A DNA stretch of 64,000 bases. It comes from Planctomycetota bacterium. GTDB taxonomy: Bacteria; Planctomycetota; Phycisphaerae; UBA1845. Below, one piece after another: positions 31,376 to 53,038 of the stretch. The notes below the pieces were generated by a model. That model made no database searches and was not told the DNA's origin. It saw only the letters and a list, made by a program, of their open reading frames with translations. The DNA is taken from positions 1 to 64,000 of the forward strand of contig JAUWWQ010000021.1 of assembly GCA_030616775.1 (NCBI GenBank), written 5' to 3'. Both the position numbers and the translations under genes were made by a program. Within the stretch, counting starts at the first letter, position 1, and each line of letters begins with the position of its first letter.

Positions 31376-33543
31376 TCCCTCTCCTCAATCCGGCTACGAG
31401 CGCCGCTGGTGGATTTCCCGTCTCGCCCTTCTGCTCGACTGGAAGGCGCGTCGCTGCCGAGTACCGCGGGGCTTGTAGGGAGTGCAGTCTCGCTCGCCGA
31501 GGTGCCAAAGGAAGTGGGGCATGACCGGCACGGGCCGAGGGGACAGTGACCTCTCTGGTGACTGTGGCAGAACGTGCATGGGAACCCGTCCGCGACATTG
31601 TGCGTGTGATCCCCCTCGGGGCTGTTGCGGTGCCAAGCCGTTGTGGTGTGACACACCTCGCAGATCCCGTCATAGGTGGGTGGATCGTTGTTGCTGTGGA
31701 TGAAGTCGCTACCTGAGAAGGTTACCGGTGTACCGTCGATCTCGCGCGCGATCAGCGCGGCATTGTCGTTCTCCACGTCGTGAACGTCGTGACACTCCTG
31801 GCAGGTCGGCTCCCACTCGTCGCAAACGGCGTGAATTGCCTTGCGCGTGTGGCAGCTCCCGCACAGGGTTTCATCGTTGGCGGTGCGGAGCAGCATTCCA
31901 TCTCCGTCACCGTCGTTGACGCCGCCGGAATCCGCCCCGTGGGGTGCATGACATGTCATACACTCGACCTTGCCGTCTTTGACAAACAGCGGCTGCAGCT
32001 CATCGGGCGGTGGAAACTCGCCCTCACCAGCCGGGTAGGGGTGACCCACCGGATGAGAGCCGCCGTCACCAAGGCCTCTATCACGCTCAGCGTGGCAGTC
32101 TTTGCACATAGCGTCCCCGTCATTGCTTACCTGCAAGTACGACGGGCCATAGGTGGTGTCATGCTGGTAATGACAGGTGCAACACTTGATGTTGCCGTTG
32201 GCGTCCAGGGACATGCCTTCCAGCGTCGGACCTCCGGAATCCGCCGTTGAATTTACCCCCGAAACACCCCAGGCGTGCGAACGACCGTGACCATCTCGAG
32301 CAGCATCGTTCGTCCCAAAAGGGTCGGCCAGGTCGCGCTCATGAACGACTGCCCGCAGGGCTCGCCCGCCGGAACTGTGGCATGACATGCACAATACGAT
32401 CTGGCCCTCCATGGTGCCCCCAGTTCCGCCCGGCTGACCATTGATCCTATGGCAGGGCTTGCAGATATGCGGCCTGTCCTCAACGAGATGCGGCCCGTCC
32501 AGGTAGATTTCGGCGGCCAGCGCCGTTTCTGCCAGGAGAGTCTCGTGCCCAATGTCATGGCCGGCCCCACTGGTGGCCGTCGTGAGCTTGCGCGACTCCG
32601 ATGCGCCAAACCCTTCAACCGGAAGCGGCACTGCCTGCCCGGCGATGCCGGCACCAGTAAGGTCGTACACCTCCACTCGCGAGCTTCCGCTGCTTACAAC
32701 GTACAACCGAAATCCGTCGTTGCTCACCTCCAGATCGCACGGGATCCGCAGCTTTCCCGGCTCGTACCCATACTCGACGACCTTACCGAGTTCCGTGCCG
32801 TTTGGATCAAACACCCGAACCGTACCCATCAGGGCATCGGTGAGGTAGATGAGTCCTTCGGCGTCAACGGTTAATCCCAGGGGGCGCGGCATCCAGCCTT
32901 CCAGCAGGTAGATTCCGATGGACTTCAGTCGATCCCCGAACTGCTGCAGAAACACGCCCGCTGTAGTGAACACCTGGAGACGCGACTTGTCGTGGTCCGC
33001 AATAATGATGCGGTTATGCGGTTCATCGACGGTGATCGCACTTGGATATATGAACTCGCCGGGCCAGATTCCCCGGGACCCGAGGATCAACGCCAGGCTG
33101 CCGTCGCCTTCAAACCCGTAGATCCTGTCCCCCTCTGCGTCGACCACATAGATCCGCCCGGTATCGGCGGCGATGTCAATGTCCGTGGGACCGACGAACG
33201 AAACCAGTGGCTCATCATCACCCAGATACCCCAACAAGCTAAAGGCCCTGTCATAGACCGCGACCTTGGGTACATCGCGTAGGGACACGAAGAGGCGGCC
33301 GTCGGGGTGGACAGCCACGCCGATCGGCCCCTCCGGGACGGGCCAGGTGTTCGTCAGAATGCCCGAAGCGTCGAACCGGGCGATGCGCCGGGCAAGCGGA
33401 TCGGACACGAAAACCGAGTCATCCGGCGCAATGGAAAGTCGGGCCGGGCCACGGAGCTGTTCCGCCAGCGAGCCAAGATGCGGCAACGGCTCCATCTGCC
33501 CGACGGACATCAGGCCGACAATCACTGCATTGATTGCGATCAC
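31372..33543 (-). CDS. NHL-propeller / nine-heme cytochrome c fusion
   Basis: A 723-residue fusion. A short signal-like start (INAVIVGLMSVGQ) leads to about six NHL-type blades over residues 20-305 (for example GPTDIDIAADTGRIYVVDAE and RPLGLTVDAEGLIYLTDALM). Residues about 350-690 carry nine CxxCH heme sites: CKPCH, CMSCH, CCTCH, CKDCH, CMTCH, CGSCH, CQECH, CEVCH and CTFCH. Distal His residues are plentiful. The tail after residue 690 is Ser/Arg-rich. It is probably periplasmic or surface electron transfer with a propeller for docking. It overlaps the dockerin-type gene by 4 bases. Confidence 0.87.
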   Translation of the reverse strand: MIAINAVIVGLMSVGQMEPLPHLGSLAEQLRGPARLSIAPDDSVFVSDPLARRIARFDASGILTNTWPVPEGPIGVAVHPDGRLFVSLRDVPKVAVYDRAFSLLGYLGDDEPLVSFVGPTDIDIAADTGRIYVVDAEGDRIYGFEGDGSLALILGSRGIWPGEFIYPSAITVDEPHNRIIIADHDKSRLQVFTTAGVFLQQFGDRLKSIGIYLLEGWMPRPLGLTVDAEGLIYLTDALMGTVRVFDPNGTELGKVVEYGYEPGKLRIPCDLEVSNDGFRLYVVSSGSSRVEVYDLTGAGIAGQAVPLPVEGFGASESRKLTTATSGAGHDIGHETLLAETALAAEIYLDGPHLVEDRPHICKPCHRINGQPGGTGGTMEGQIVLCMSCHSSGGRALRAVVHERDLADPFGTNDAARDGHGRSHAWGVSGVNSTADSGGPTLEGMSLDANGNIKCCTCHYQHDTTYGPSYLQVSNDGDAMCKDCHAERDRGLGDGGSHPVGHPYPAGEGEFPPPDELQPLFVKDGKVECMTCHAPHGADSGGVNDGDGDGMLLRTANDETLCGSCHTRKAIHAVCDEWEPTCQECHDVHDVENDNAALIAREIDGTPVTFSGSDFIHSNNDPPTYDGICEVCHTTTAWHRNSPEGDHTHNVADGFPCTFCHSHQRGHCPLGPCRSCPTSFGTSASETALPTSPAVLGSDAPSSRAEGRDGKSTSGARSRIEERE

Positions 33544-33848
33544 GACGCACTACTTAACAAGCAGATGTTCGGTCCCCCGTGAAGGTGCCCCGAGTACTCC
33601 TGCGACCTCCCCGGCTCAGTATAGCACGGAACCTGCGTATGGTCAGGACATCAGGTAGGAAGAGCAGCGATTCTTTTCGGTCCGCCGTCCACCCAGGGCC
33701 AAACGGGCCTCATTTATCGGTACCACCCCCTTGCACAGCCGCTGTGGGTCTACAGGTTTGGCCTCAATTCGCCGATCAGCGCTGGGAGCCACATTCGAGG
33801 CAGGCGCGAGCCTCACCCGCGGGACCTCCGCGCCGCTGGAATACCCCG

Positions 33849-34628
33849 ATGATGTCACCACTACCCGCGACTCCAACGCCCGGCCCGCGTCCCTCGAGCG
33901 CCGCATCAGTTGGCCTGACAGTCGCTCTGTCACTGACTGGCGTGGCGGCAGCCCTGGGCGGTTCATCGACGGTACCCAACACGCTGCAATTCGGTCCGGG
34001 AAGTACGAATCATCCGGTCGGCGTCATCCCTTCTACGGCCGTTACCGTGCCTTCCAGTTGGCCGGTGGACAACCGCGGGGCGATCACCTGCTTGACCTGC
34101 CACGCGGACATCCCAACCAGCCGGGAAGTATCAGGGCCGCAACTGCGTGATTTCGAGTCACACGCTCCACAAGCGGCCGATTTCTGTGCGAGATGTCACG
34201 GTGAGACAGACCAGGGCAGCGCCAGGTCGGTGCATTGGCGTACACTGGGGGTAGCGCATCTCCCCAGCGATCGGACCGATCCTCGCGATGGTGGCGGAGT
34301 ACTCGATACCCGCACGCGGCAATGCCTCTCCTGCCACGACGGTGTCAGCGCACCCGAATCCACCAACACGACACCGTGGGCCCGTTCCCTGGGTAACATG
34401 GGTGACAAGCGCCGCAACCACCCCATCGGCGTCCAATACCGTGACCTTGGCCGCCCGAAGGACCTTTCCCCGCTCCGCCCCGCTAGCCTGTTGCCACGGG
34501 AGGTCGCTCTGCCCAACGGGAAAGTGGGCTGTCTTTCGTGTCACAACCTCTTTGCCGGAGGGGAGTATCTGCTGACTGTTCCGACCAAGGGTTCCGAACT
34601 ATGCCTGACTTGTCACGACATGAGATAA
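33849..34628 (+). CDS. Five-heme cytochrome c
   Basis: About 259 residues with a signal or anchor helix (VGLTVALSLTGVAAALGGSS) and five CxxCH sites: CLTCH, CARCH, CLSCH, CLSCH and CLTCH. The C-terminal half, with QCLSCHDGVSA, NHPIGVQYRDLG, VGCLSCHNLFAGGEYLL and CLTCHDMR, resembles the tetraheme module seen at 40213, 40897 and 46813. The frame runs up to 33579, but the upstream portion is Pro/Arg-rich and unlike a cytochrome, so I start at ATG 33849 (or 33852). It is divergent from the NHL fusion. Confidence 0.82.
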   Translation: MMSPLPATPTPGPRPSSAASVGLTVALSLTGVAAALGGSSTVPNTLQFGPGSTNHPVGVIPSTAVTVPSSWPVDNRGAITCLTCHADIPTSREVSGPQLRDFESHAPQAADFCARCHGETDQGSARSVHWRTLGVAHLPSDRTDPRDGGGVLDTRTRQCLSCHDGVSAPESTNTTPWARSLGNMGDKRRNHPIGVQYRDLGRPKDLSPLRPASLLPREVALPNGKVGCLSCHNLFAGGEYLLTVPTKGSELCLTCHDMR

Positions 34629-40212: not shown

Positions 40213-40824
40213 ATGAGGCAGGCAATATTCATCCCGCTCTCGATCGCGCTGGGCGCTTGCGGTGCGGCCGCGTTTGCAGCCGGGATCATCGGGACCGGGC
40301 ATGACTTTTCGAGCGAAGCGTGGAGCGACGGGCGAATCTGTCTGCCGTGTCATGCATCGCACAACGCACAGACTGACGACGACGGCAGCAGCATGGTCCT
40401 CTGGAACCATGTGATGACCGACGAGACATTCACGATGTACTCCGATTTCGTGATCGAACGAACGGATCGCGACCAGGATGAGCAGCCGGGAGGGTCCAGC
40501 AAGCTGTGCCTGAGCTGCCACGATGGTGCAACCGCCGTCGATGCCTTCGGTGGCGGGCCGGAGTCCCCTTCGGTCTTCGCAGAGACCTCCCTGGGCACGG
40601 ATCTGCGGGATGACCACCCGATCGGAGTGCAATATCCGCCCGACGGCTTCGCCGGGTTCAAGCCGAGGGCCAATCTGCCCCCGGTGAAGCTGGAGGCCTG
40701 GGGTGGCAAGACCGACCGCGTTGAGTGCACGTCATGTCATGAACCGCACTCGGACGATTTCGGCATGTTCCTGCGCATGGACAATACCGGCAGCGCCCTG
40801 TGTCTGCAGTGTCATGACAAGTAG
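40213..40824 (+). CDS. Tetraheme cytochrome c (copy 1)
   Basis: A 203-residue secreted cytochrome. The signal peptide (IPLSIALGACGAAAFAAG) is followed by four CxxCH sites: CLPCH, CLSCH, CTSCH and CLQCH. The conserved module runs GRICLPCHASH, SSKLCLSCHDGATA, LGTDLRDDHPIGVQYP, RVECTSCHEPHSDDFGMFL and SALCLQCHDK. The next gene is a close paralogue 72 bases away, showing local duplication. It was probably a soluble periplasmic carrier. The HP in DDHPIGVQ and the H of PCHASH are candidate distal ligands. Confidence 0.9.
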   Translation: MRQAIFIPLSIALGACGAAAFAAGIIGTGHDFSSEAWSDGRICLPCHASHNAQTDDDGSSMVLWNHVMTDETFTMYSDFVIERTDRDQDEQPGGSSKLCLSCHDGATAVDAFGGGPESPSVFAETSLGTDLRDDHPIGVQYPPDGFAGFKPRANLPPVKLEAWGGKTDRVECTSCHEPHSDDFGMFLRMDNTGSALCLQCHDK

Positions 40825-40896
40825 CCCCGCTTCACTTCGCGGGACGGCCCGACTGCAAAGGTATAGCTAGCGAATGGATGAATGGATGGGGGATCG

Positions 40897-41529
40897 ATGA
40901 AATCTACAATGGGGTGGCGAACAGCAGTATTCGTGGCCATACTGACTGGCGCGGCCATTTCACAGGACACGTCCAGGATCGCGAATACGCCGCATAATCT
41001 AAACACCGTGGACGTTTGGGGCGTGGTCGTTCCCCAGAACCGTGTGTGCCTGCCCTGTCACACGTCCCATGGTGCCAAGATGGACGATGACCGGGGGGCC
41101 TTGGTGTTGTGGAACCACGAGATCACGGAGCAGACGTTCGAGATGTATACCACCTCGGCGGGTCACCAGGGCGGTCAGCCGGAGGGCACCAGTAAACTCT
41201 GCCTGAGCTGCCATGATGGGGCCACCGCCATCGACAGCTTCGGCGGCAACAGCGATTTCTTCAACAATGTCAGGATCGCCCCGGATCGTCCCAGCAACCT
41301 CGGCACGGACCTGCGGGACGATCACCCCATCGGGATTCAATATCCTCCGCCGGACTTGACAGGTTACAACGACAAGAGCACATTCAGCGGGGTGAAGGTA
41401 GTGACGGTCAACGGCATTGACCGGGTGGAATGTACGTCTTGCCACGACCCCCATGACAACTCACTCGGAATGTTCCTTCGACAAACGCTGGACGGCAGTG
41501 CGATCTGTCTCGAGTGTCATGACAAATAG
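40897..41529 (+). CDS. Tetraheme cytochrome c (copy 2)
   Basis: A 210-residue secreted cytochrome. I chose ATG 40897 so the signal peptide WRTAVFVAILTGAAISQ starts near the N-terminus. Four CxxCH sites follow: CLPCH, CLSCH, CTSCH and CLECH. It matches copy 1 almost motif for motif (GTSKLCLSCHDGATAIDSFG, LGTDLRDDHPIGIQYPP, VECTSCHDPHDNSLGMFLR), with the largest differences in the middle loop (about 95-140). It lies 72 bases after copy 1 and 181 bases before the NHL lipoprotein. Confidence 0.9.
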   Translation: MKSTMGWRTAVFVAILTGAAISQDTSRIANTPHNLNTVDVWGVVVPQNRVCLPCHTSHGAKMDDDRGALVLWNHEITEQTFEMYTTSAGHQGGQPEGTSKLCLSCHDGATAIDSFGGNSDFFNNVRIAPDRPSNLGTDLRDDHPIGIQYPPPDLTGYNDKSTFSGVKVVTVNGIDRVECTSCHDPHDNSLGMFLRQTLDGSAICLECHDK

Positions 41530-41710
41530 TCGCCCCGGGAGAAGATGCGAAAGGCGGAAACGCCGATAACTTCCCATGGACGGACCTGATCGGTGAAGGC
41601 GCAATCGGGGCCTCGCTCGATGTCCCGTCGCGGAGCCGATGCCCCAATCCGGGAGGTGTTGCCTTGTGAAAGGAAGCCAGCGACATCCGTGTATTCTGCG
41701 ATGTTGGCCG

Positions 41711-42931
41711 ATGGTAGGGCGGCGGACACAAGCAAGCGCGACCGGCGTCGTGTTCGTTGCTCTGACCCTGGCCGCGGGGTGCAACGCCCCGCACAAGACA
41801 CAAGCCCCTTTGCTGCTGTTCCCCTCGCCGCCGGACAAGCCCAGGATCCAGTTCCTGACCTGGGCGAGTGGCGCCGAGGAGGTTGAGGTCCCAAAGAGCA
41901 GTTTCGCACAGTTCGTACTCGGCGACGAACCCGAGAACAGTTTGGGTATTCAGAAGCCCTACGGCGTGGCCGCGAGGGACGGCGTTGTGTACGTGTGCGA
42001 CACGAAGATGCCGGGACTGTGTCGGCTGGACTTCAAGAACCGAACCTTCTCGGTGCTTGGCGTCCGCGGACCGGGGCGGTTGCGCAAACCGATAAACGTC
42101 CTCCTTGATGCCGCGGCGTACAAGTTCGTTGCGGACTCGGAACGTGAGCAAATCGTCGTCTTCGGCCCTGATGACCAGTATGTAACGGCGTTTGACGTCC
42201 CCAAGCCAAGCCATCCGGTCGACGTAGCCCTGTGGGAAAATGAGCTGTATGTGCTGGACAACGATGATTCCTGCCAGATCGTGGTTATGGATCGGCAGAC
42301 CGGCGAAGTGCTCCGTACTCTGGGCGGTCCGGGCGAGGAACCGGGGCAGTTCAGAAGACCCAACAGCCTGTGCATCGGTCCCGAAGGGCACCTGTACGTC
42401 AGCGACACCTTGAATTGGCGCATCCAGAAACTGACCCGTGACGGAGAGGTCGTCTGGACCACTGGGACGCCGGGCCAGCGCCTGGGACAGTTTATACGCA
42501 ACCGTGGTCTACGCATCGGACCTGACGGGATCATTTATGTTGCCGACGCCGCTACCGAGATCATCCAGATGTACAACGTGGAAGGCCAGATACTCATGCA
42601 CTTCGGCGGTCCGGGTTCGGTGCCCGGTGCCCTGGTGCTTCCCGCGACCGTGGCCATCGATGCGAGTTCCATCCCTTATTTCAAGCAGTTCATCCACGAA
42701 GATTTCAACGCCGAGTACCTCCTGTTCGTCAGCAGTCAATACGGCGAACACCTGATCAGCGTTTACGCCTTCGGTTCCTTCCCCGAAGGCTATCAGCTTT
42801 CGGACGCTCAGATAGCCTCACTCCCACCGGTGGGCGAAGACGAGAGCGAAAAGTCGGCAGCCTCATCGCCAGACGCCGAAGGTAGTCCGAATCAGGCGGG
42901 CGAGGCTCAGCAACCCAAGGAGCAGGAATAA
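41711..42931 (+). CDS. NHL-repeat lipoprotein 1
   Basis: A 406-residue beta-propeller lipoprotein. The signal ends in lipobox TLAAGC (TGVVFVALTLAAGCNAP). About six NHL blades follow, such as EPGQFRRPNSLCIGPEGHLY and IRNRGLRIGPDGIIYVADAA. The C-terminus is an acidic Ser/Glu/Pro/Gln tail after residue 375. I took ATG 41711 since the longer frame (41639) is Cys/Arg-rich. It starts the coupled electron-transfer operon. It is a paralogue of the 45713 gene (shared RIQFL/RIRYV start and phased blades). The propeller may hold cytochromes together or bind a substrate. Confidence 0.85.
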   Translation: MVGRRTQASATGVVFVALTLAAGCNAPHKTQAPLLLFPSPPDKPRIQFLTWASGAEEVEVPKSSFAQFVLGDEPENSLGIQKPYGVAARDGVVYVCDTKMPGLCRLDFKNRTFSVLGVRGPGRLRKPINVLLDAAAYKFVADSEREQIVVFGPDDQYVTAFDVPKPSHPVDVALWENELYVLDNDDSCQIVVMDRQTGEVLRTLGGPGEEPGQFRRPNSLCIGPEGHLYVSDTLNWRIQKLTRDGEVVWTTGTPGQRLGQFIRNRGLRIGPDGIIYVADAATEIIQMYNVEGQILMHFGGPGSVPGALVLPATVAIDASSIPYFKQFIHEDFNAEYLLFVSSQYGEHLISVYAFGSFPEGYQLSDAQIASLPPVGEDESEKSAASSPDAEGSPNQAGEAQQPKEQE

Positions 42932-42934
42932 GCC

Positions 42935-43615
42935 ATGGATGCCTGCCGGCCCCATCAGTGCCCTGCGCACCAGTTGCCCAAGCGACCAGGAGATTCCCGG
43001 ACGTATTCACATCGAGCCGGTTGGTGCGCGGCGGCCGTTTTGCCGCTGATGGTAGCAGCTCTGATCGTGGCGGCGGCGTGCTCACCCGAGGCCAAGCATC
43101 GGGCGCTGACATTCTTCTTCGATGGCGTTCCCCCACTTGAGGGCGACGTTGCCCATATCGAGGTCCAGGTTCCGGGAGACTTACTGGCCGGTGCGGCACT
43201 CAAACCGCCGCGGCGCGTGGAGGCCATGAAGAAGTTCTACAACCATCCACCCTATAAGGACAATCGTTGTGCCGGCTGCCACGACGTTGACGCCGGTGGG
43301 CTGCTGAAGACGGCCCGGGAGGGACTGTGCCAGAGCTGCCATCCCGAGAAGCCCGCGAAGAAGAAATATGTCCACGGGCCCGTGGCGGTTAACGGCTGCC
43401 TGGCGTGTCATCGTTATCACAGGGCATTGCATCCGAAAGTGCTGATAGACGACGCCCAGACCCTCTGCTTCCATTGCCACGAGACCGGTGAGCTGAGGAC
43501 CGATGAGCATCACGCGACGATCGAAGAGGAGCCTTGCATCGACTGCCACGACGCGCACGGCGGCGACGATCGGTTTTTCCTCATTCCGAAAGAGGAAACG
43601 GTTGATGCTTCATGA
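42935..43615 (+). CDS. Pentaheme c-type lipoprotein
   Basis: A 226-residue protein whose N-terminal signal (AAVLPLMVAALIVAAACS) has a lipobox-like IVAAAC. Five CxxCH sites lie between residues 110 and 210: CAGCH, CQSCH, CLACH, CFHCH and CIDCH, with bridging His in HGPVAVN and HATIEE. The first M follows the NHL gene stop by 3 bases, so the two are co-translated. Predicted attachment to a membrane on the periplasmic face makes it a candidate link between propeller and porin. The first 20 residues are polar and could be over-long. Confidence 0.85.
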   Translation: MDACRPHQCPAHQLPKRPGDSRTYSHRAGWCAAAVLPLMVAALIVAAACSPEAKHRALTFFFDGVPPLEGDVAHIEVQVPGDLLAGAALKPPRRVEAMKKFYNHPPYKDNRCAGCHDVDAGGLLKTAREGLCQSCHPEKPAKKKYVHGPVAVNGCLACHRYHRALHPKVLIDDAQTLCFHCHETGELRTDEHHATIEEEPCIDCHDAHGGDDRFFLIPKEETVDAS

Positions 43616-43628
43616 AACGTATTGATCG

Positions 43629-45716
43629 TTGAACGGAAGCAACGAACAGGTTCGTCGCGCGATATGCTGGACCGCTATAGGGGCAGCGGGGCGCGCAGGT
43701 TGTTGGATTGTGTGCCTGGCCCTCGGTGCCGCCGGTGCTGCATGTCCGGCCGGTTGCCGCACACAGCCTGGGAGGTCCACCGGCATCGGGGCGCTAAGAT
43801 TCACCGACTTTGGGGCCCACGCGGACTTCGTTGTCAGGTGGCGGGAAAGGGAGCAAACGTCGAAGACCACAACCAGTGAGACCCGGTCCGAAGAGACAAT
43901 CTACGAGGAGAGTGTCAGCCTGGAGACGAAAGGCTATGTGTACCATCCTAACCTGCTCGAATTCGCCCTCGGGGGAGTGTTCGGGCTGGTGCAGGAGGAT
44001 TTTACGGACATCATCGATGGGCGCAGGCGACACGACACCAATACGGGCGATCTTCTCGAGTTCGACGTGGACGCGCGGATGTTCAAGAGGAAGTCTTACC
44101 CCATGACGGTGTTTGCCCACCGCCGCCGCGGGCTTGTCCCCCGGCCCTTTCTACCCAGCCTGGAGACCACCACCACAAACCTCGGGTTCACCTGGCAATA
44201 CGTCAGCAAGAAGACTCCCAGCAGTTTTCAATTCAGCCACACTGATGCCAAGCTGACTCCGCTTTTCGTGACCGGGCGCACCGATGAGGAAGGCCGGCAG
44301 AAAAACACCGAACTGAGATTCGAGACCGCCTATCACTTCAGCGACCACCACGTGCTGTCGTTAACTTACGAGCATGAAACGGTCGAAGAAGAACCCTTCG
44401 AGCTCGACTATGACGCCGATGAGATCACCCTCACCCATCGCCTGGAGTTTGGCAGCCGGCACCAACACGATCTGCGCTCGGAGCTACATTACCTGAATCA
44501 GCGCGGTACGATCGACATTGAGCGTGCCCGCTGGCGCCAAGACCTGCGGTTGAAACACTCGGATACGTTGCAGTCTCTATTCCAATTGGAGTTGCTGGAC
44601 CGGACCCGCGGAAACCGATTCAGCAATGTGCCGGACGTGGAGGAGCGTTCACTCCTGCTTTCCGGGTCGCTCCGGCACCAGCTTTACCAGAGCCTGACTT
44701 CGCAGCTCCGAATGTACGTACGGGAACAGGAATTCGAACCCGACCTAAAGATCACCAGATGGGGTGGTGAGGCCAACTTCAACTACCGCAAGATTAACCG
44801 TTGGGGCGTGCTGTATGCCAACTACGGCTTCCGAGCCGAGCGGAACGATCACCGCGGAGAGTCGCGCACGACCGAGGTTGTCGACGAATCGCGGACTTTT
44901 CAAGACCCCGATCCGATCAGACTCAACAACCGGAATGCCCATGTCGGCTCCATTTTCATCACCGCGGAAGATCGCGTCACCATATACCAGCGCGGCCGGG
45001 ACTTTGTGGTGCGGACCTTCGGCAACGTCGTCGAGATTGAGCGCGTGCCGACCGGACACATCGCGGACGGCGAGACGGTTCTAATTGACTACCTGTTCAA
45101 CCTGGGCGGCAGCTTCGAACTGGACACCATCGCCCACAACTTCGGCATTCGACAGGACTTCGACTTCGGTCTGACACCGTACTACCGATTCGAGTGGCAG
45201 GATCAGTCCATCACTCCGACCAGAGCTACCGGGGCAATTGCCGAGGATATCACGGCTCACGTTGTCGGCGTGGAGTACCGGGATGCCCCGCTGAGACTCT
45301 TTGCGGAATACGAGGACCATGATTCAACCATAAATCCATTCGTCAGCTCGCGTCTGGGGGCGTCCTATACGCACCGATTCAAGTCCGGTGCGGAGACGAG
45401 CCTTCACACCCGCTGGACTGATACCAGCCATGTCGCGCCCGTTGAACGGGATATCAGGCTGCTGACGCTGGAAGGCCGGTACCGACACCGCATCGGGCAA
45501 AACCTGACAGTTGAAAGTTCTGTGCTCTACCGCAACGGAGAGGACTCGGTCTCCCGTGACACCGAAGGGATTGACGCATCGCTAGCGGTGGAATGGTCCG
45601 TGCGGCAGACGGATGTCAGAATGAGCTTGGAGTACAGCGATTTTGAGGACGAATTCACGGAGAATGACTCTTGCACCCTGTTCGTCCACGTGAGGCGAAG
45701 GATCTGGCAACCATGA
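43629..45716 (+). CDS. Predicted outer-membrane beta-barrel protein
   Basis: A 695-residue protein with a signal-like N-terminus (CWIVCLALGAAGAACPAGC), then long amphipathic alternating strands with aromatic girdles (LLEFALGGVFGLVQ, ELRFETAYHFSDHHVLSLTY, SLLLSGSLRHQLYQSLTSQL), up to the terminal strand ending RRRIWQP. No Cys-heme motif occurs after residue 50. That is the profile of a large outer-membrane barrel, as in porin-cytochrome conduits. The start is TTG at 43629 and is uncertain; an ATG lies just upstream out of frame. It overlaps the next gene by 4 bases. Confidence 0.8.
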   Translation: MNGSNEQVRRAICWTAIGAAGRAGCWIVCLALGAAGAACPAGCRTQPGRSTGIGALRFTDFGAHADFVVRWREREQTSKTTTSETRSEETIYEESVSLETKGYVYHPNLLEFALGGVFGLVQEDFTDIIDGRRRHDTNTGDLLEFDVDARMFKRKSYPMTVFAHRRRGLVPRPFLPSLETTTTNLGFTWQYVSKKTPSSFQFSHTDAKLTPLFVTGRTDEEGRQKNTELRFETAYHFSDHHVLSLTYEHETVEEEPFELDYDADEITLTHRLEFGSRHQHDLRSELHYLNQRGTIDIERARWRQDLRLKHSDTLQSLFQLELLDRTRGNRFSNVPDVEERSLLLSGSLRHQLYQSLTSQLRMYVREQEFEPDLKITRWGGEANFNYRKINRWGVLYANYGFRAERNDHRGESRTTEVVDESRTFQDPDPIRLNNRNAHVGSIFITAEDRVTIYQRGRDFVVRTFGNVVEIERVPTGHIADGETVLIDYLFNLGGSFELDTIAHNFGIRQDFDFGLTPYYRFEWQDQSITPTRATGAIAEDITAHVVGVEYRDAPLRLFAEYEDHDSTINPFVSSRLGASYTHRFKSGAETSLHTRWTDTSHVAPVERDIRLLTLEGRYRHRIGQNLTVESSVLYRNGEDSVSRDTEGIDASLAVEWSVRQTDVRMSLEYSDFEDEFTENDSCTLFVHVRRRIWQP

Positions 45717-46816
45717 CAACGGAACTGATCGAAAGGGGCGTAAATCCGGTGGCATGGCGTCCCGTCGGGGTGTTCTATATCATCGCGATGGCGGTGCCGC
45801 TCCTTGTCGCGTCGGGCTGTCAGCGTCCTTTAAGGCCGATCTTCGACGAGCCTTTATCGCCAATCACCTGGCCTGCCGACCCCGCTCGGGCAAGGATCAG
45901 GTATGTGGGGCAACTGACCTCGTCGGCCGACCTCAAGCCGCAGCGAAAGCTCTTCCAGGGAGTCGTGGACTTCCTCGTAGGGATAAAGGCCCCGGAGCAG
46001 CTTTACGGACCACGTTCCGTGGTCATCACCAAGGACGGAACCAGAGTGTGGATCGCGGATCCCGGTGGGCGCTGCCTGCACCTGTTTGATTTGCAGGATC
46101 GGTCCTACAAGAAGGTCATACGTGCGGGCAACGAGCATTTGTTCAGTCCGTCGGGCTTGTGCGTTGGACCTGACGAAACGATCTTCGTCAGCGATGCCGA
46201 GAGCGTCGCTATTTATCAATTGTCTGGACGTACCGGGGCGCTTCGCCGTTCGCTGCGCCTTACTGATGACGTTAAGCGGCCCGTGGCCCTGCACTATGAC
46301 GGTGATAAAGAGGAGCTCTTCGTCGTCGACGTCGCCGCTCACAACGTCAAGGTTCTAGGTCTTGACGGGCGGCCCATTCGCATTATTGGCAGACGGGGAA
46401 AGGGCCCGGGTCAGTTCAACTTTCCGTGTGACATCGCCGACGACGGCACGGTCATCTGGATTGCCGACACCGGCAACCAGCGGGTCCAGGGACTGACCCA
46501 TACCGGCGATCCGGTCGCCATCTTCGGGGAGGCGGGTGACGCCCCGGGCCAGTTGGCCCTGCCCAAGGGAATCGCCACCGACAGCGATGGAAACATATAC
46601 GTCGTGGATGCCCGCTTTGAGAACGTGCAGATATTCGACCGTACCGGTAGCCTGCTGCTCGTGATCGGCGAGGAGGGGACCGGGCCGGGGCAGTTCTGGC
46701 TGCCTGCCGGGATATTCGTCGATCCAGACGACAGAATCTGGATCTGCGATACGTATAATCGGCGCGTCCAGGTCTTCGAGCGCCTAATAGAGACTCGCGT
46801 CGGAGTTCAGCCATGA
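45713..46816 (+). CDS. NHL-repeat lipoprotein 2
   Basis: A 367-residue NHL-propeller lipoprotein. The signal FYIIAMAVPLLVASGCQRPL has lipobox VASGC. Blades include LYGPRSVVITKDGTRVWIAD, PGQFNFPCDIADDGTVIWIA and LALPKGIATDSDGNIYVVDA. ATG 45713 overlaps the barrel stop and its own stop overlaps the next ATG, both by 4 bases. Compared with NHL lipoprotein 1 it lacks the acidic tail. It probably lies on a membrane surface next to the barrel and the twelve-heme cytochrome. Confidence 0.86.
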   Translation: MTTELIERGVNPVAWRPVGVFYIIAMAVPLLVASGCQRPLRPIFDEPLSPITWPADPARARIRYVGQLTSSADLKPQRKLFQGVVDFLVGIKAPEQLYGPRSVVITKDGTRVWIADPGGRCLHLFDLQDRSYKKVIRAGNEHLFSPSGLCVGPDETIFVSDAESVAIYQLSGRTGALRRSLRLTDDVKRPVALHYDGDKEELFVVDVAAHNVKVLGLDGRPIRIIGRRGKGPGQFNFPCDIADDGTVIWIADTGNQRVQGLTHTGDPVAIFGEAGDAPGQLALPKGIATDSDGNIYVVDARFENVQIFDRTGSLLLVIGEEGTGPGQFWLPAGIFVDPDDRIWICDTYNRRVQVFERLIETRVGVQP

Positions 46817-48528
46817 ATCCCGCGTCAAACCGCAGTTTGTTGGGTGTGTTCGTAGTGGCGATCGTGTGCTGTCCCCGGATGGTTGGGGCCCAAGAACGTG
46901 TCGTCGAAACGGTGCATAACCTCTCGGTCAGCGGTCCGGGGGAGATTCGCGCTGAGTCGGAAGAGCAAGTCTGCATCTTCTGCCACGCGCCCCACAGCAC
47001 CGCCGGGTCGATACCGTTGTGGAATCGTGAGTTTCCGGTCGCGAACTACAGGATATACCAGTCATCGACGTTCGATGCCGCCCCGGGCCAACCCACCGGG
47101 GCCAGCAAGCTGTGCCTGAGCTGTCATGATGGGACCATCGCACTTGGTCGTGTTCTCAGCCGGGCCGACCGCATTCGCATGGTCGGTGGAGACTTCATAC
47201 CGGCGGGTCTATCAAACCTTGGGACCGATCTATCTGACGATCACCCGGTCAGTTTTCATTACACGGCCGGACTGGCGGCATCGGACCGCCAGCTCAAAAA
47301 CCCCAGCACACTGCCGGCCGAGATCACGCTCGATCCATCTGGGCAGCTCCAGTGCACGGCGTGCCACGACCCGCACCGCAACAGACACCGAATGTTCCTG
47401 ACGTTAAGCGACGAGTTCGGCGTCCTCTGCGCGGTATGTCATGACATGCGCGGTTGGTCATCCGGTTCACACGGCGTCTCCGGGCAGGCGGTGTCTGGCG
47501 CGGCCATGGGCGATTGGCCGTTCGGTACCGTGGCCCAGAACGCCTGCCGCAGTTGCCACCGCAGCCATGCCGCAGGCGGCCGTGAGCGGCTGCTTATCTT
47601 TGAGAGAGAGGAAGATAACTGTCTGAGCTGTCACGACGGACGAGTCGCACGGTCTGACATCAGCGCTGAAATTGACAAGCAGAGCTCTCACGACCCGCGC
47701 TTGTATATTGGCATTCACGACCCTGCGGAGACGGCGGCTGGTTCGCAACCGCATGTCGAGTGCAGCGACTGTCACAATCCACATGCGGCTGCCGCACCGA
47801 GCGATCAGGGTTACATCCCCATCGGGGCGACCATGCGCGGGGTATCGGGGGTGACATCGGGCGGCGGCTATGTGCAGGAGGCCCAGTTTGAATATCAGGT
47901 CTGCTATCGCTGCCACGGCGACGCGCCGGTTCCGACTACACGCCGCATTGTCCGCCAGGCCGATCAGCCCAACCTGCGTCTGAAGTTCAGCTCGACCAAT
48001 CCCAGCTTCCACCCGTTGGTAACGGCCTCGCCGGGCACGGATACGGTCAGCCTGGATCCGACCATCCCCCGTGGGACGCTGATCCGCTGCACCGACTGCC
48101 ACAGTAATGACACCGGGCCCCGAGCAGGCGGCAGCGGGCCTGACGGGCCACACGGCTCCGTGTACGACTTTCTTCTGGAACGCAACTACACCGTGTACGA
48201 CAATACGCCCGAATCGGACTACGACTACGCACTCTGCTACAAATGCCACAGACGCGCCAGCATCTTGAATAATGAGAGCTTCCCACGGCACGCCGAACAC
48301 CTGCGAGACCGGGACGCACCATGCAGCGCCTGCCACGACCCCCACGGAGTCAGTACGACCGTAGGCGGCGCCTCGGACCACATTCACCTTATCAACTTCG
48401 ACATCACCATTGTCCGCCCGTTGACCGGGACCGGGCAGATGGCATTTCGAGACCTCGGACGATTGGCCGGTAGCTGCACCTTGACATGCCACGGCCATGA
48501 CCACGACAACCAAGAATACGGCAACTGA
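46813..48528 (+). CDS. Twelve-heme-motif cytochrome c
   Basis: A 571-residue secreted cytochrome (signal LLGVFVVAIVCCPRMVGAQ). Eleven CxxCH sites occur: CIFCH, CLSCH, CTACH, CAVCH, CRSCH, CLSCH, CSDCH, CYRCH, CTDCH, CYKCH and CSACH. A last CxxxCH (CTLTCH) lies near residue 560. The N-terminal 200 residues match the tetraheme module of 40213 and 40897 (GASKLCLSCHDGTIALGRVL, LGTDLSDDHPVSFHY). The C-terminal 370 residues are unrelated. It could be the extracellular or periplasmic end of the conduit. It closes the operon. Confidence 0.9.
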   Translation: MNPASNRSLLGVFVVAIVCCPRMVGAQERVVETVHNLSVSGPGEIRAESEEQVCIFCHAPHSTAGSIPLWNREFPVANYRIYQSSTFDAAPGQPTGASKLCLSCHDGTIALGRVLSRADRIRMVGGDFIPAGLSNLGTDLSDDHPVSFHYTAGLAASDRQLKNPSTLPAEITLDPSGQLQCTACHDPHRNRHRMFLTLSDEFGVLCAVCHDMRGWSSGSHGVSGQAVSGAAMGDWPFGTVAQNACRSCHRSHAAGGRERLLIFEREEDNCLSCHDGRVARSDISAEIDKQSSHDPRLYIGIHDPAETAAGSQPHVECSDCHNPHAAAAPSDQGYIPIGATMRGVSGVTSGGGYVQEAQFEYQVCYRCHGDAPVPTTRRIVRQADQPNLRLKFSSTNPSFHPLVTASPGTDTVSLDPTIPRGTLIRCTDCHSNDTGPRAGGSGPDGPHGSVYDFLLERNYTVYDNTPESDYDYALCYKCHRRASILNNESFPRHAEHLRDRDAPCSACHDPHGVSTTVGGASDHIHLINFDITIVRPLTGTGQMAFRDLGRLAGSCTLTCHGHDHDNQEYGN

Positions 48529-48600: not shown

Positions 48601-49716
48601 TCACAACATCTGTCTGTCCGGCGAGCCGGCGGTGTGTCCGGGATGTTCACAGAAGGCCTTCTTGTACAGCACGAGCATGGCAGCTAGGACGAAGAGCAGG
48701 CCCGCGGTACCGACGGCGATTCTGGTTTGCCGCTGACGGGCGTCGTGCAACGCCTGAACGAGTTCGTGGTCATAGGCCGTGTGCTTGGCGACGTGCTCGA
48801 TGGATTTGGCCAGCTCGTTGATCTCCCGGATGTTGCACCCGTGTTGCACTTCGCGGAGGCGGAGCCAGGTGTCGTCCAGGTGCTCGTACATTTCGGTCAG
48901 GGCCAGGTTGCGATAGCCCATCCGCTGGAGGTCCTGAAACTGCACGGAGCATTGCTCGATCAGCCCGGCGGCCTGCTCGAAGGTCTCCCGGATCTTGGCG
49001 ACCACAGTCATGTTGCCCGTCGTGTGGCAGGGTGAACATTTGCCGAGTTCCTCCCGGGAGCGGGCATCCAGGATGTCCGTGGTGGCAAGGGGGATGGCAT
49101 GACTGCCTTCCCCATGGCAGAACAGACAGGAAGGGACGCCGACTCTCCCGTGGGCACTGGCCAGGTGTTTCTCCGCACTTTTGGCATGGCATATCGCGCA
49201 CACATACGCGATACCTCGTCCTCGGGTCATGTTGACACCGCCGTCCCGGCTGAACAGGCAGCCGGGGGCCTCCGGGCCCACGTGCGGGTCGCCGAGATGC
49301 TTCTCAATATCGCTGCTGTGGCATTCCCTACACGCGAAGGAGATATCTGCTTCGACGGCCATGCCGATTCCAACACGGTCCCGCAAGAACAGAAACTCCG
49401 GGTTGAACGCCAGATGAGAGACCTCCTTGAACTCGTCATCCGACGAGAACTCCTCGCGTTTCACCTTCGCGTCACCACCATGGCAGCTCTCGCAGGGAGT
49501 GTTCTCCTCATAGTGCACGCTCTTGGCCCACTCCTGGTCGACGATCTCCGCCAATCGCCCGCCGCTTTTGCGGTGGCACTCCATGCAGGCATTGCCGGCG
49601 TACCATACCTCGGGAGTTGCATCTTCGGCCGGTGGCACACCCACCGTGTCAGGGGCGCTCGACAAGAGCAGTAAGACAAAAATGGCCGGAAGCAGCATCA
49701 TCTCGACCAGTCCCAT
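48601..49716 (-). CDS. Six-heme membrane-anchored cytochrome c
   Basis: About 371 residues with an N-terminal hydrophobic segment (LLPAIFVLLLLSS), six CxxCH sites (CMECH, CESCH, CRECH, CAICH, CLFCH, CSPCH), a helical stretch (EQAAGLIEQCSVQFQDLQRM) and a C-terminal helix (GTAGLLFVLAAMLVLYKKA). A GCLFSR in the middle may be a lost heme motif. ATG 49701 overlaps the upstream stop as ATGA; ATG 49716 is an alternative. Last gene of the Rieske/b operon, it could replace cytochrome c1/f as the acceptor. The family is unnamed to me. Confidence 0.85.
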   Translation of the reverse strand: MGLVEMMLLPAIFVLLLLSSAPDTVGVPPAEDATPEVWYAGNACMECHRKSGGRLAEIVDQEWAKSVHYEENTPCESCHGGDAKVKREEFSSDDEFKEVSHLAFNPEFLFLRDRVGIGMAVEADISFACRECHSSDIEKHLGDPHVGPEAPGCLFSRDGGVNMTRGRGIAYVCAICHAKSAEKHLASAHGRVGVPSCLFCHGEGSHAIPLATTDILDARSREELGKCSPCHTTGNMTVVAKIRETFEQAAGLIEQCSVQFQDLQRMGYRNLALTEMYEHLDDTWLRLREVQHGCNIREINELAKSIEHVAKHTAYDHELVQALHDARQRQTRIAVGTAGLLFVLAAMLVLYKKAFCEHPGHTAGSPDRQML

Positions 49717-50267
49717 GGCCCGTGCAAAACGCGTTGAATTTTGCGACGCTCGCGGGCCAACAGCACGTAGAACAAAGCCACGACCAGGCACGACATGAAG
49801 ATCATCGGAATCGACGGCGGCCAGGCAGCCCAAAGCGTAAACGCCACGAACAGCACAATGACCAGCGTGACCAAAAATCGATGAAGCGCACCCGGCGGTC
49901 TATGCGACCAACGACGCGCCCACAGCGGAACCAGGACCACGGCAAGTGCAATCAACCCCTGCGAAAGCACACCGATCGTCTTGCCGGACATGCCCAGCAA
50001 CTCCTGCGGGGGCAGCTTGAGATACTGATAGGCCGCAAGGAAATACCACTCGGGCCGGAGGTGGGCGGGCGTGGCTCGTGGGTTGGCCGGCTCCGACTCC
50101 TCGATCCAATGCCCCAGGTCCCAATGATCCAGAATAACGGGAAGAACGGCCAGGACCGTGATGACAGCCAGCGTGCACAGCGTGACAACGGCCATGCGCA
50201 TGATCTCGTTCGGCCAGAAGGGTTCGAGTTGCTCCGGCGTGTATTGTTTGCGATAGTCAACCGCCAC
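49698..50267 (-). CDS. petD: Cytochrome b subunit IV (PetD-like, C-terminal half)
   Basis: A 189-residue membrane protein homologous to the C-terminal half of cytochrome b, encoded apart from the N-terminal half as in b6f-type complexes. PEWYFLAAYQYLKL carries the PEWY motif of the quinol-oxidation (Qo) site. Four helices are predicted (VVTLCTLAVITVLAVLPVIL, GLIALAVVLVPLWARR, FLVTLVIVLFVAFTLWAA, IFMSCLVVALFYVLL), one more than plain subunit IV. It lies 22 bases after petB. Confidence 0.93.
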   Translation of the reverse strand: MAVDYRKQYTPEQLEPFWPNEIMRMAVVTLCTLAVITVLAVLPVILDHWDLGHWIEESEPANPRATPAHLRPEWYFLAAYQYLKLPPQELLGMSGKTIGVLSQGLIALAVVLVPLWARRWSHRPPGALHRFLVTLVIVLFVAFTLWAAWPPSIPMIFMSCLVVALFYVLLARERRKIQRVLHGPWDWSR

Positions 50268-50289
50268 GCTCGTTCACTCCCAATACCGC

Positions 50290-50949
50290 TTACAGCGGTT
50301 TCGAAATCCCGGTCCGACGGATCATGGTAAAATGGATCCCCATAAATATTACGGCAGCACCCGGCAGCACCCAAATGTGCATGGCGAAGAAGAAGCCCAA
50401 GGTCTCCCCGGAGATGTTTGGTCCGCGCCGGGCCCAGATCGAAATCTGCTCACCAATAACCGGGATGGCGGTGGGAATTTCAGTCGCCACGCTCGCCCCC
50501 CAATAGCTGAGATTGGTCCAGGGAAGCAGATATCCGGTAAACGCCATCCCCGCAGTCAAGGAGAGAAGAATTATGCCCGACAACCAGTGCAACTCGCGCG
50601 GGGACCGGTAAATCTTGTAGTAGGCAATGCGGGCCATGTGCATCAAGACCAACACGATCATCACGTCGGCGCCGACGGCATGAACACGCTGAATCAGCCA
50701 ACCCATCGGAACGTTGCTCTTGATGAAGGTCACCGAGTCCCAGGCCCGGGCGGGATCCGGTTTGTAGTAGATCAGCAGGAGAATGCCCGTGTACACCTGG
50801 ATCACGAACAGCAGGAACGCCAGTCCTCCGAAACAGCCCGCCCAACCGAGCGTGCGCGGGACCCACTTCCTGGTGATGTTCTTCTCCACGAAGGGCGTGA
50901 GTTGATAGCGGTCGTCGAGTCCCTTATAGATGGCCCGTAATAACGCCAT
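50290..50949 (-). CDS. petB: Cytochrome b N-terminal half (b6-like)
   Basis: A 219-residue cytochrome b6-like subunit binding two b hemes. The two His pairs are VHAVGADVMIVLVLMHMAR and FAMHIWVLPGAAVIFMGIHF. Cys39 lies in GWAGCFGGLAFL, the site where b6f-type and Gram-positive b6 subunits bind heme ci (cn) covalently. GYLLPW is conserved. The length is normal. The gene order Rieske, b, subunit IV makes a quinol-oxidising complex. It is 16 bases downstream of the Rieske gene. Confidence 0.94.
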   Translation of the reverse strand: MALLRAIYKGLDDRYQLTPFVEKNITRKWVPRTLGWAGCFGGLAFLLFVIQVYTGILLLIYYKPDPARAWDSVTFIKSNVPMGWLIQRVHAVGADVMIVLVLMHMARIAYYKIYRSPRELHWLSGIILLSLTAGMAFTGYLLPWTNLSYWGASVATEIPTAIPVIGEQISIWARRGPNISGETLGFFFAMHIWVLPGAAVIFMGIHFTMIRRTGISKPL

Positions 50950-50965
50950 TCCTATACCTTTGGCC

Positions 50966-51445
50966 TCACGCCCTCCCGCCCTGGTCGCGAATCTTGAGCA
51001 CGTCCTCTTCCACGACGAACTCGACGCGCCTAAGGGGCATGTTCACCGGCCCGGCAATCGGGTTGCCCAGATCGTCGAACGCAGCGTTATGGCAGGGGCA
51101 TTTGAAACCCTGACTGGCGCTTTCCCACTGGACTATGCAGCCAAGATGTGGACATGTCCCATCAAAGGCCCGGATGTCGTCCTTCAACTTCACGACCACG
51201 ATCTGACTGCCCCGGTGCTCGCCCCAATAGGCGTAGCCTTCCACCAACTCTTCCAACGGGACCTCCATCAACTCCATAGGACCCAACGATTTCGGCAGCC
51301 GGAGAAACGCAACGATCGGGTAGCCGACGGCTGCGGCAGACACAGCGGCCGTTCCGCCGATGGCAACCTGGCAAAACCGCCGGCGATTACCGTCCGCCGG
51401 AGAGCCGATCTGATCGGCGTCGTTTTTGTCGTTTGTATCGTTCAT
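50966..51445 (-). CDS. qcrA: Rieske iron-sulfur protein
   Basis: About 159 residues from ATG 51445, the start I favour because a ggtagg-like site precedes it; the frame is open to 51505. The N-terminus NRRRFCQVAIGGTAAVSAAA is a twin-arginine signal or anchor. The 2Fe-2S ligands are in CPHLGCIVQW and CPCHNAAFDDLG, the Pro loop is GPVNMPLRR. It accepts electrons from quinol at the Qo site of the b complex. The first gene after the 13-15-heme cytochrome, which ends 87 bases upstream. Confidence 0.95.
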   Translation of the reverse strand: MNDTNDKNDADQIGSPADGNRRRFCQVAIGGTAAVSAAAVGYPIVAFLRLPKSLGPMELMEVPLEELVEGYAYWGEHRGSQIVVVKLKDDIRAFDGTCPHLGCIVQWESASQGFKCPCHNAAFDDLGNPIAGPVNMPLRRVEFVVEEDVLKIRDQGGRA

Positions 51446-51532
51446 GTTCGACCTACCACTCGCCTCGGCGTCTCCCATCATCCTCAACGGTAGGCAAGTG
51501 TACACATCCTAAAGTTCCGACAGCCGCTGATA

Positions 51533-53038
51533 TCACTCTTCAAGCTTCTCCGGTTTCAAGCCCGCCCGTGGCGCCTTGGGCATTTCACCTTTACCTCGAT
51601 CGTAGGAACGCGACTCATGGCAGCCCGGGGCACACCTTCCACCATCAGGTAGTCTCGTGTGGTTAATCTCGATCTGCCACCCGCGCGGGCCGAACGGCAC
51701 CGTCTCGCGCATATGGAAGGGCCTGGACGATGCGTGCATCTCGTGACAGGCCCGGCAGGTACGGCCCCTAAACTCCTTGTTGACGTGAACGAAATGCAAG
51801 TTGCGCTCCTGATCACGAAACTCGGTAACGCCTATGCCCTGCTCTGCGACCACGAGCTGTTCAATGTGACACTCGAAACACAGAGCATATGACTTGACGT
51901 CAAACGGAGCGTAGAACGACTCGGGATAATCGCCGGCCAACCGGGCGTAACGCGTCGAGGCGTGTGACTCGTGGCACGGCGTGCACTGTCCCTCACGGAT
52001 CGGACCATGATGCCGGGGGTTCTCCTTGAGCAGATAGGCCATGTCGGTGAGCACCCGACCGTCGTCCGTGCGTAACAGCTCGTTGTGACACGAAAGACAA
52101 AGGGTCTTCTCCAGCTTGGAGAGCAGGCTGGGCAGCACGCTGCCGTGCCCGGCATGACAGGCGTTGCAGGATTCCTCGGTGGTCAAGGCGCCGTGAACGA
52201 ACGGGGAGGTCTCGACGAGCTTTCGAATATCATCGTGCTCGTGGCACAAATAGCACAGCTTCTGTGGGCCCTCCCGTAGTTGCCCCGGGTGCTCCCTAGT
52301 ATGGGCGTCATGGCAGTCCAAACAACGTCCATCCATGACCGGGGCGTGCGAACGGCCAATCAGTTCGAGGCGAGAACGGAGGTCCTCGTGGCAATACAGA
52401 CAGAGTTGCTGCACCTCCTTGGGCAGGAGCATCGGCATCCACGACGAGTGGGATTCGTGACAGACGCTGCAATCGCCGACGACCTCCATACGCCCATCAA
52501 CGTACCGTATGCCCCCGTACTCCTCCGGCTTGTGACAGGGGAAGCAGAGTGTGCCCGACGGGTCACCGAGCAATTGCAATCGATAATCGCTCCCGTGCGG
52601 GTCGTGGCACTTGTCGCACTCCTTATCGGTAACGGGCTTATGGACGACGGTGCGCTCGGACTGCGTGTGGCAGTAGCTGCACAGCTCGGTTTTGGGGACA
52701 ATCAGCCCGTAGGTGTGCTTTTGCAGATCGGTTACGACATGGCACGCCTCACACTGCTTCTGGGCCGTCGGACCGTGGAGGACCCGGCCGGCCATCTCCT
52801 TGGTGTGACACTCGGTGGTCACGCACGATTCAACCGGGCCGGTGGGCCGCTCGACCGAGGTGAGAGGCTGCATGAGTGGGCTGAAAGGTTCGTCGACCGG
52901 AACGACAGGCTGCTCAAGGGGGCCGACGGGCTGTTCGACGGGGCCTGTCAGCGGCTCCACGGGCGTCTGCACCGCGGCAGACAGACCCGCCAACAGCCAC
53001 AGGAAAACCACACAAGAAACATGGCGACGGTTCATCAA
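51533..53038 (-). CDS. Multiheme cytochrome c (13 CxxCH plus 2 atypical sites)
   Basis: A 501-residue secreted cytochrome. After the signal (VVFLWLLAGLSAAVQT) comes a Pro-rich low-complexity linker of about 45 residues with periods like PVEPLTGPVEQP. Thirteen CxxCH sites follow, many in doublets (QCEACH, LCSYCH, ECDKCH, LCFPCH, DCSVCH, LCLYCH, RCLDCH, LCYLCH, SCNACH, LCLSCH, QCTPCH, LCFECH, TCRACH). An upstream CVTTECH (Cx4CH) and a late CAPGCH (Cx3CH) may bind atypical hemes. It heads the Rieske/b operon and may be its high-capacity electron acceptor. Confidence 0.92.
   Translation of the reverse strand: MMNRRHVSCVVFLWLLAGLSAAVQTPVEPLTGPVEQPVGPLEQPVVPVDEPFSPLMQPLTSVERPTGPVESCVTTECHTKEMAGRVLHGPTAQKQCEACHVVTDLQKHTYGLIVPKTELCSYCHTQSERTVVHKPVTDKECDKCHDPHGSDYRLQLLGDPSGTLCFPCHKPEEYGGIRYVDGRMEVVGDCSVCHESHSSWMPMLLPKEVQQLCLYCHEDLRSRLELIGRSHAPVMDGRCLDCHDAHTREHPGQLREGPQKLCYLCHEHDDIRKLVETSPFVHGALTTEESCNACHAGHGSVLPSLLSKLEKTLCLSCHNELLRTDDGRVLTDMAYLLKENPRHHGPIREGQCTPCHESHASTRYARLAGDYPESFYAPFDVKSYALCFECHIEQLVVAEQGIGVTEFRDQERNLHFVHVNKEFRGRTCRACHEMHASSRPFHMRETVPFGPRGWQIEINHTRLPDGGRCAPGCHESRSYDRGKGEMPKAPRAGLKPEKLEE

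Follow-up and report, generated by a model that had tools for sequence, protein, structure and literature searches.

A Uet-type conduit locus in a planctomycete and its possible link to an OmcE-type cytochrome filament

How a protein nanowire might be plugged into the cell that makes it is the question raised by a gene cluster at positions 40213-48528 of contig JAUWWQ010000021.1 (assembly GCA_030616775.1; Planctomycetota, Phycisphaerae, UBA1845). We analyzed this cluster within positions 1 to 64,000 of the forward strand, a stretch of 64,000 nucleotides that we call the window. A 2025 review counts the anchoring of nanowires in the membrane and the points at which electrons enter them among the key open challenges, and states that direct biochemical evidence tying porin-cytochrome complexes to nanowire formation is lacking (PMC12307469). 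The cluster encodes a predicted large outer-membrane beta-barrel, two lipoproteins with NHL beta-propellers, a pentaheme lipoprotein, a 12-heme cytochrome and two tetraheme cytochromes that resemble OmcE, which forms a filament in Geobacter sulfurreducens. Our best guess, to which we assign a probability of roughly 0.5, is that it specifies a porin-cytochrome conduit of the Uet (undecaheme electron transfer) type that is wired to an OmcE-type cytochrome filament.

The preliminary description of this locus had singled out five genes at 41711-48528. All five are present at these coordinates, with spacings of 3, 13, -4 and -4 bases, but the set was incomplete: it overlooked an OmcE-like pair upstream and a cluster of Rieske, cytochrome b and 15-heme cytochrome genes downstream. 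The seven genes at 40213-48528 lie on the forward strand, and Pfam confirmed doubled-CXXCH cytochrome domains in the cluster. We rejected an ordinary locus for cytochrome maturation or nitrite reduction, because profile searches with Pfam and NCBIfam found no such domains. A chimeric assembly was judged unlikely as well, given that the gene order is repeated in independent genomes, including G002, a genome of the same genus that consists of a single contig (locus L133); its 12-heme gene looks broken, probably through sequencing errors.

The last of the five genes (46813-48528) encodes the 12-heme cytochrome, with 11 CXXCH motifs and one CX3CH motif. Its first 211 residues match OmcE of PDB entry 7TFS (phmmer E value 2.8e-30; family profile E value 3.5e-51), and the part with the OmcE fold, which we call the head, comprises about residues 25-211. 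In an AlphaFold2 model of the protein (predicted local distance difference test, pLDDT, 83; predicted template modeling score, pTM, 0.80), residues 10-187 were aligned by VIA to the OmcE subunit of 7TFS with a Z score of 13.5 and a root-mean-square deviation (rmsd) of 2.5 over 175 residues. Residues 111-504, which carry hemes 3-11, were aligned in the same way to MtrA (6R2Q chain A; Z score 9.9, rmsd 3.9 over 222 residues). Because the head fits OmcE and this rod fits MtrA, head and rod would make one unbroken heme chain.

What is new, then, is a 12-heme protein predicted from its modeled fold to join the OmcE nanowire-subunit fold to an MtrA-like trans-barrel rod. In the literature outside the primary Uet and OmcE papers, we found no statement that the 11/12-heme protein of Uet has an OmcE fold. 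One conserved protein predicted to unite a nanowire-subunit fold with a trans-barrel wire presents a concrete, testable junction, and it suggests how protein nanowires plug into cells. Because none of 50 aligned homologues, which come from many phyla, departs from the CX3CH motif, family members that are counted as "undecaheme" probably bear 12 hemes.

Proteins that are fused in one lineage and encoded by neighboring genes in another are frequently in contact. Five Desulfuromonadales loci (L170-L174) encode head and rod in two adjacent genes located directly behind an NHL gene, one for a tetraheme protein that covers profile positions ~12-213 and one for a 7+1-heme protein that covers positions ~243-569. 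Acidobacteriota have a split head/rod gene pair of the same kind. As a side observation made by eye, the NHL, tetraheme and octaheme genes of these five loci and of L176 lie mostly beside genes resembling those of type II secretion or type IV pili, and L170 has a SurA-type isomerase nearby.

The two OmcE-like genes (40213-40824 and 40882-41529) are separated by 57 bases, and the second ends 181 bases before the first NHL gene. Each product, a predicted nanowire subunit, has four CXXCH motifs and matches 7TFS over its full length (phmmer E values 3.8e-20 and 8.3e-21, respectively). Thus, full-length homology to the OmcE subunit, four hemes and eight ligand histidines were all found, as expected of the OmcE family. 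In OmcE, one of the hemes in each subunit receives a ligand from the neighboring subunit (PMC9473688). The protein has exactly four conserved histidines outside the heme motifs, for four hemes. These distal histidines are kept in 100, 94, 100 and 100% of the OmcE-like tetrahemes, and in at least 90 of 101 12-heme heads; for its 12 hemes, the 12-heme family as a whole has 15 non-motif histidines that reach at least 90% conservation. This conservation agrees with, but does not prove, the idea that a shared histidine-heme bond joins the head to a filament subunit.

The OmcE filament of G. sulfurreducens (7TFS) thus has its whole subunit, as judged by sequence and for the head by predicted fold too, and its eight ligand histidines in common with both the tetrahemes and the 12-heme head. 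However, the Geobacter OmcE loci have neither a 12-heme gene nor a barrel of this family, and the head/rod pair is encoded by separate genes elsewhere. In four of these loci (L033, L035, L039, L040), omcE is followed by a gene for a protein of ~740 residues that ends like an outer-membrane barrel, with KxF or RTF. Comparison of this protein with the window barrel gave an hhalign probability of 58, i.e., at most a distant relation. Separately, we observed that chain N of PDB entry 9YUQ, a multiheme protein in an entry of 16 chains, matches the tetrahemes and the 12-heme head; this entry is probably another OmcE-type filament.

The preliminary description had noted that propeller lipoproteins alternate with cytochromes, and proposed that they dock partners or orient the conduit. 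The alternating pattern stands, but neighbor counts and gene fusions lead to a sharper explanation, in which every OmcE-fold cytochrome is paired with an NHL protein of its own. The putative partner of the OmcE-like tetrahemes is NHL1 (41711-42931; Pfam NHL 3.8e-15; lipobox AAG-C), and that of the 12-heme cytochrome is NHL2 (45713-46816; Pfam NHL 8.6e-22; lipobox ASG-C). Of 107 OmcE-like tetraheme genes, 92 have an NHL gene as their immediate neighbor, and in 77 of 84 cases the gene directly upstream of a 12-heme gene encodes an NHL protein. The NHL proteins that accompany 12-heme genes fall into a separate clade (77, plus two strays), with a support of 0.98. Seven relatives have, next to OmcE, a fusion of NHL1 with an 8-heme domain, which puts the propeller directly on the heme chain. 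One dedicated propeller per OmcE-fold cytochrome would explain why two are present, and their role might be docking, assembly or insulation. Our lipobox survey is rough, since it is determined by start-codon calls.

The conduit also needs a barrel, and the 695-residue product of 43629-45716 (TTG start) had been expected to be a large one of 18-26 strands. A membrane barrel is indeed what AlphaFold2 predicts, but one of ~30 long antiparallel strands, into which a small domain is inserted near residues 424-483 (37 homologues; mean pLDDT 91.6; pTM 0.80). The top-listed PDB matches of this model in Foldseek are outer-membrane proteins, and this, together with the predicted fold, led us to discard a non-membrane beta-protein. 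Among the listed matches, MtrB (6R2Q chain B) has the highest TM-score (0.46, by both lengths), and VIA aligned 419 residues spanning the whole model to MtrB with a Z score of 15.3. Outer-membrane barrel proteins often have phenylalanine as their last residue, and a C-terminal phenylalanine is found in most homologues of this barrel. Membership in the MtrB/PioB family was rejected, as there was no match in Pfam or NCBIfam at E≤1; no curated barrel family was matched, and there was no sequence match among PDB sequences. More generally, none of the MtrB/PioB, MtrA/DmsE and MtrC/OmcA models was matched at its cut-off. Compared to MtrCAB of Shewanella (6R2Q), the locus has a barrel of similar size and, in the 12-heme protein, an MtrA-like linear heme rod, but it differs in having ~30 rather than 26 strands, an OmcE-fold head and NHL lipoproteins.

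The closest published counterpart is Uet. In Tenderiales and Gallionella, it consists of a tetraheme, an isomerase, a barrel, trihemes, two NHL proteins and an 11/12-heme cytochrome (PMC10734462). When compared by this published composition, our locus has in common with Uet a tetraheme, a large barrel, two NHL proteins and an 11/12-heme cytochrome with doubled CXXCH motifs, all in one cluster. In Nitrospirota, module loci have the order OmcE-isomerase-barrel, which is that of UetA-UetB-UetC, while gammaproteobacterial module loci have trihemes, as Uet does. The barrels of both groups are homologous to that of the window, as found by matches to hidden Markov models and, for divergent barrels, by an hhalign probability of 97.7. 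Because the gammaproteobacterial and Nitrospirota loci share the Uet layout and have these homologous barrels, we assign the window locus to the Uet type. A porin-cytochrome conduit, with a barrel encoded alongside multiheme cytochromes, was therefore correctly proposed at the outset, but not a new kind of conduit, since Uet is published and the module extends over about ten phyla.

There are nonetheless differences. In place of the triheme periplasmic proteins UetDEG, the locus has the pentaheme lipoprotein (42935-43615; five CXXCH motifs; Paired_CXXCH 9.4e-22; lipobox AAA-C). Downstream of its lipobox is an FFFDGVPP motif, and a similar motif is found at the equivalent position in gammaproteobacterial triheme lipoproteins. 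Uet also has a peptidylprolyl isomerase, UetB, whereas no such open reading frame is found among the genes at 40213-48528. The window locus is thus a Uet-type conduit in which a pentaheme lipoprotein replaces the trihemes and the isomerase is absent. In addition, it has two tandem OmcE-like genes and the Rieske/cytochrome b/15-heme neighbor. Other loci are less similar when compared by description: an OmcE/MtoA/two-NHL locus in Geoalkalibacter ferrihydriticus (PMC12016550) and cytochrome/NHL clusters in Desulfovibrio ferrophilus (PMC9769857) have NHL genes beside OmcE-like or outer-membrane multihemes, but are reported without the barrel/12-heme core.

The barrel is present in 52 of 60 relatives from the same order, and in only 12 of 294 Planctomycetota genomes drawn evenly across the phylum. 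Among loci found by the barrel alone, all four core parts occur in 15 of 20 close relatives, 14 of 20 divergent-barrel loci and 4 of 10 phylum-wide loci; these counts are strict, automatic and confined to the available stretch, so that genes at contig ends are missed, and several of the incomplete loci in close relatives are cut there. The same gene order is therefore found in other Planctomycetota. Among named loci retrieved with OmcE, the full module was found in Planctomycetota, Bacteroidota/Ignavibacteria, Gamma- and Betaproteobacteria, Desulfobacterota, Gemmatimonadota, KSB1, Nitrospirota, Poribacteria and Verrucomicrobiota, and we judged it by eye in Calditrichota (L083). In total, the module OmcE-NHL-(5-heme)-barrel-NHL-12-heme spans about ten phyla, and a multiheme lipoprotein is a regular, separate part of it in Planctomycetota. 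The gene order is not due to chance, because it recurs both in relatives found by the barrel alone and in other phyla. The barrel profile had no match in 12 genomes, including Geobacter and Geothrix, none of the 12 being a positive control. The combination of 12-heme protein, NHL protein and barrel offers a marker for finding electroactive bacteria, and it places this marker in Phycisphaerae, a group with few descriptions of extracellular electron transfer.

Given these parts, we propose the following mechanism. A Rieske/cytochrome b quinol oxidase, together with 6- and 15-heme cytochromes, would carry electrons across the periplasm, and the next carrier after the pentaheme lipoprotein would be the 12-heme protein, with its MtrA-like rod threaded through the ~30-strand barrel. 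The OmcE-like head would then act as a first "subunit", onto which exported tetrahemes would polymerize as a surface nanowire. NHL1 and NHL2, as outer-membrane lipoprotein propellers, would each hold or assemble one OmcE-fold cytochrome. Outward electron flow is favored because no cytochrome c oxidase was detected in the host genome.

It is important to emphasize that the elements of this proposal vary in confidence. It is, in our view, likely that the locus encodes an electron conduit across the outer membrane to which OmcE-type cytochromes are coupled. We hold more tentatively, with a probability approaching an even chance at best, that the filament has the 12-heme protein as its wired base. 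The fullest version, in which this base docks the filament via a shared histidine-heme bond, with one NHL protein per OmcE-fold partner and across about ten phyla, we would put somewhat below even odds. What the analysis shows is the order of the genes, their homologies, the predicted folds, the conservation of hemes and ligands, the recurrence of the module across phyla, and the split and fused forms of the genes; we infer barrel insertion, an outward-facing head, filament nucleation, the role of the propellers and outward flow.

Several points weigh against the proposal. Its weakest step is orientation: by analogy with MtrA/MtrB, in which the N-terminus is inside, the head would be periplasmic rather than extracellular. 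The AlphaFold2 runs used single chains from which hemes were omitted, and polymerization of these tetrahemes is a prediction. Some loci that have the barrel and the 12-heme protein have no OmcE gene (L123, L154, L156). A clade that contains all 12-heme heads (84 of 84) and nothing else has a support of only 0.37. The precedent set by Uet is electron uptake (PMC5371394) rather than outward flow. Finally, the 15-heme cytochrome encoded downstream (51533-53038, reverse strand; 13 CXXCH motifs, one CX3CH and one CX4CH) is nearer to MtrA in sequence and might itself plug the barrel, with the 12-heme protein outside like MtrC.

This last point leads to a classical three-part conduit, in which the 15-heme protein takes the place of MtrA within the barrel, the 12-heme protein has the outside position of MtrC, and the tetrahemes are soluble or surface proteins that do not polymerize. 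The DmsE/MtrA model gives the 15-heme protein 109 bits and the 12-heme protein 44, both below the curated cut-off of 192; counterparts of the 15-heme gene adjoin the module in many relatives; and a part of the 12-heme protein matches the MtrC/MtrF domain model (43 bits). However, many gammaproteobacterial and Nitrospirota modules have the barrel and the 12-heme protein without a 15-heme gene nearby, the fold of the 12-heme protein itself fits MtrA over nine hemes, and the tetrahemes retain the full set of eight histidines that ligate heme in a filament subunit. We regard the three-part conduit as rather unlikely.

It might instead be that the locus encodes a machine for nanowire secretion or assembly. 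The barrel would then mainly export or guide the OmcE-like filament, the propellers would be assembly factors, the 12-heme protein would be a cap or primer, and conduction would be secondary. In 2025, Shen et al. reportedly described an osc cluster in Geobacter in which beta-propeller, channel and isomerase genes provide assembly factors for OmcS nanowires. Osc is alike in that genes for a propeller, a channel and an isomerase go together with a nanowire cytochrome, but it serves OmcS, which is not encoded in the window locus. An assembly machine would also account for the NHL gene that adjoins nearly every OmcE-fold gene, for the SurA-type isomerase between OmcE and the barrel in several Nitrospirota loci, and for the split head/rod genes of Geobacter beside secretion-like genes of types II and IV (assigned by eye). 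Against it, the rod of the 12-heme protein is similar to MtrA, which is a trans-barrel wire, Planctomycetota regularly have a multiheme lipoprotein as a separate part, and an isomerase gene is not among the cluster genes of this locus. We consider such a machine quite improbable.

Least probable of all is a conduit for electron uptake as proposed for the Uet of Tenderia, in which the same complex would take in electrons from Fe(II), a mineral or a partner cell: the gene set is indeed as in the Uet of cathode- and iron-oxidizing bacteria (PMC10734462, PMC5371394), but in the host genome (97.8% complete, 108 contigs) neither a heme-copper oxidase (COX1) nor RuBisCO was detected at the thresholds used, and the only oxidase is one quinol-oxidizing cytochrome bd, so that electrons entering via c-type cytochromes would have no evident sink.

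The conduit wired to a filament thus remains our preferred reading, and the genes that would feed it lie downstream on the reverse strand. Together with the 15-heme cytochrome, a candidate trans-periplasmic wire, they comprise a Rieske iron-sulfur protein (50966-51505; Pfam Rieske 4.9e-11), a cytochrome b6-like subunit (50290-50949; Pfam Cytochrome_B 6.1e-50), a C-terminal cytochrome b subunit resembling subunit IV/petD (49698-50267; Pfam Cytochrom_B_C 2.8e-11) and a hexaheme cytochrome (48601-49716, with its end placed at an internal ATG). The hexaheme protein has six CXXCH motifs, a C-terminal hydrophobic anchor and weak matches to MtrC-like proteins and cytochrome c7. As a whole, the Rieske/split cytochrome b genes and the 6- and 15-heme cytochromes at 48601-53038 resemble a quinol oxidase that feeds multiheme proteins. 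Phycisphaerae bacterium OFTM5 (L087) has the same downstream arrangement beside its 12-heme gene.

A scan of the region for sigma70 promoters and terminators gave no signal above that of shuffled sequences. The host genome has a second, divergent copy of the module (L113; G000 contig C42, 500-20400), whose barrel is 30% identical and whose pentaheme gene is on the opposite strand. The window itself has a second electron-transfer cluster, which consists of a gene for a 723-residue protein with an NHL propeller fused to nine CXXCH hemes (31372-33543, reverse strand) and, divergently oriented to it, a gene for a five-heme protein (33579-34628, forward strand).

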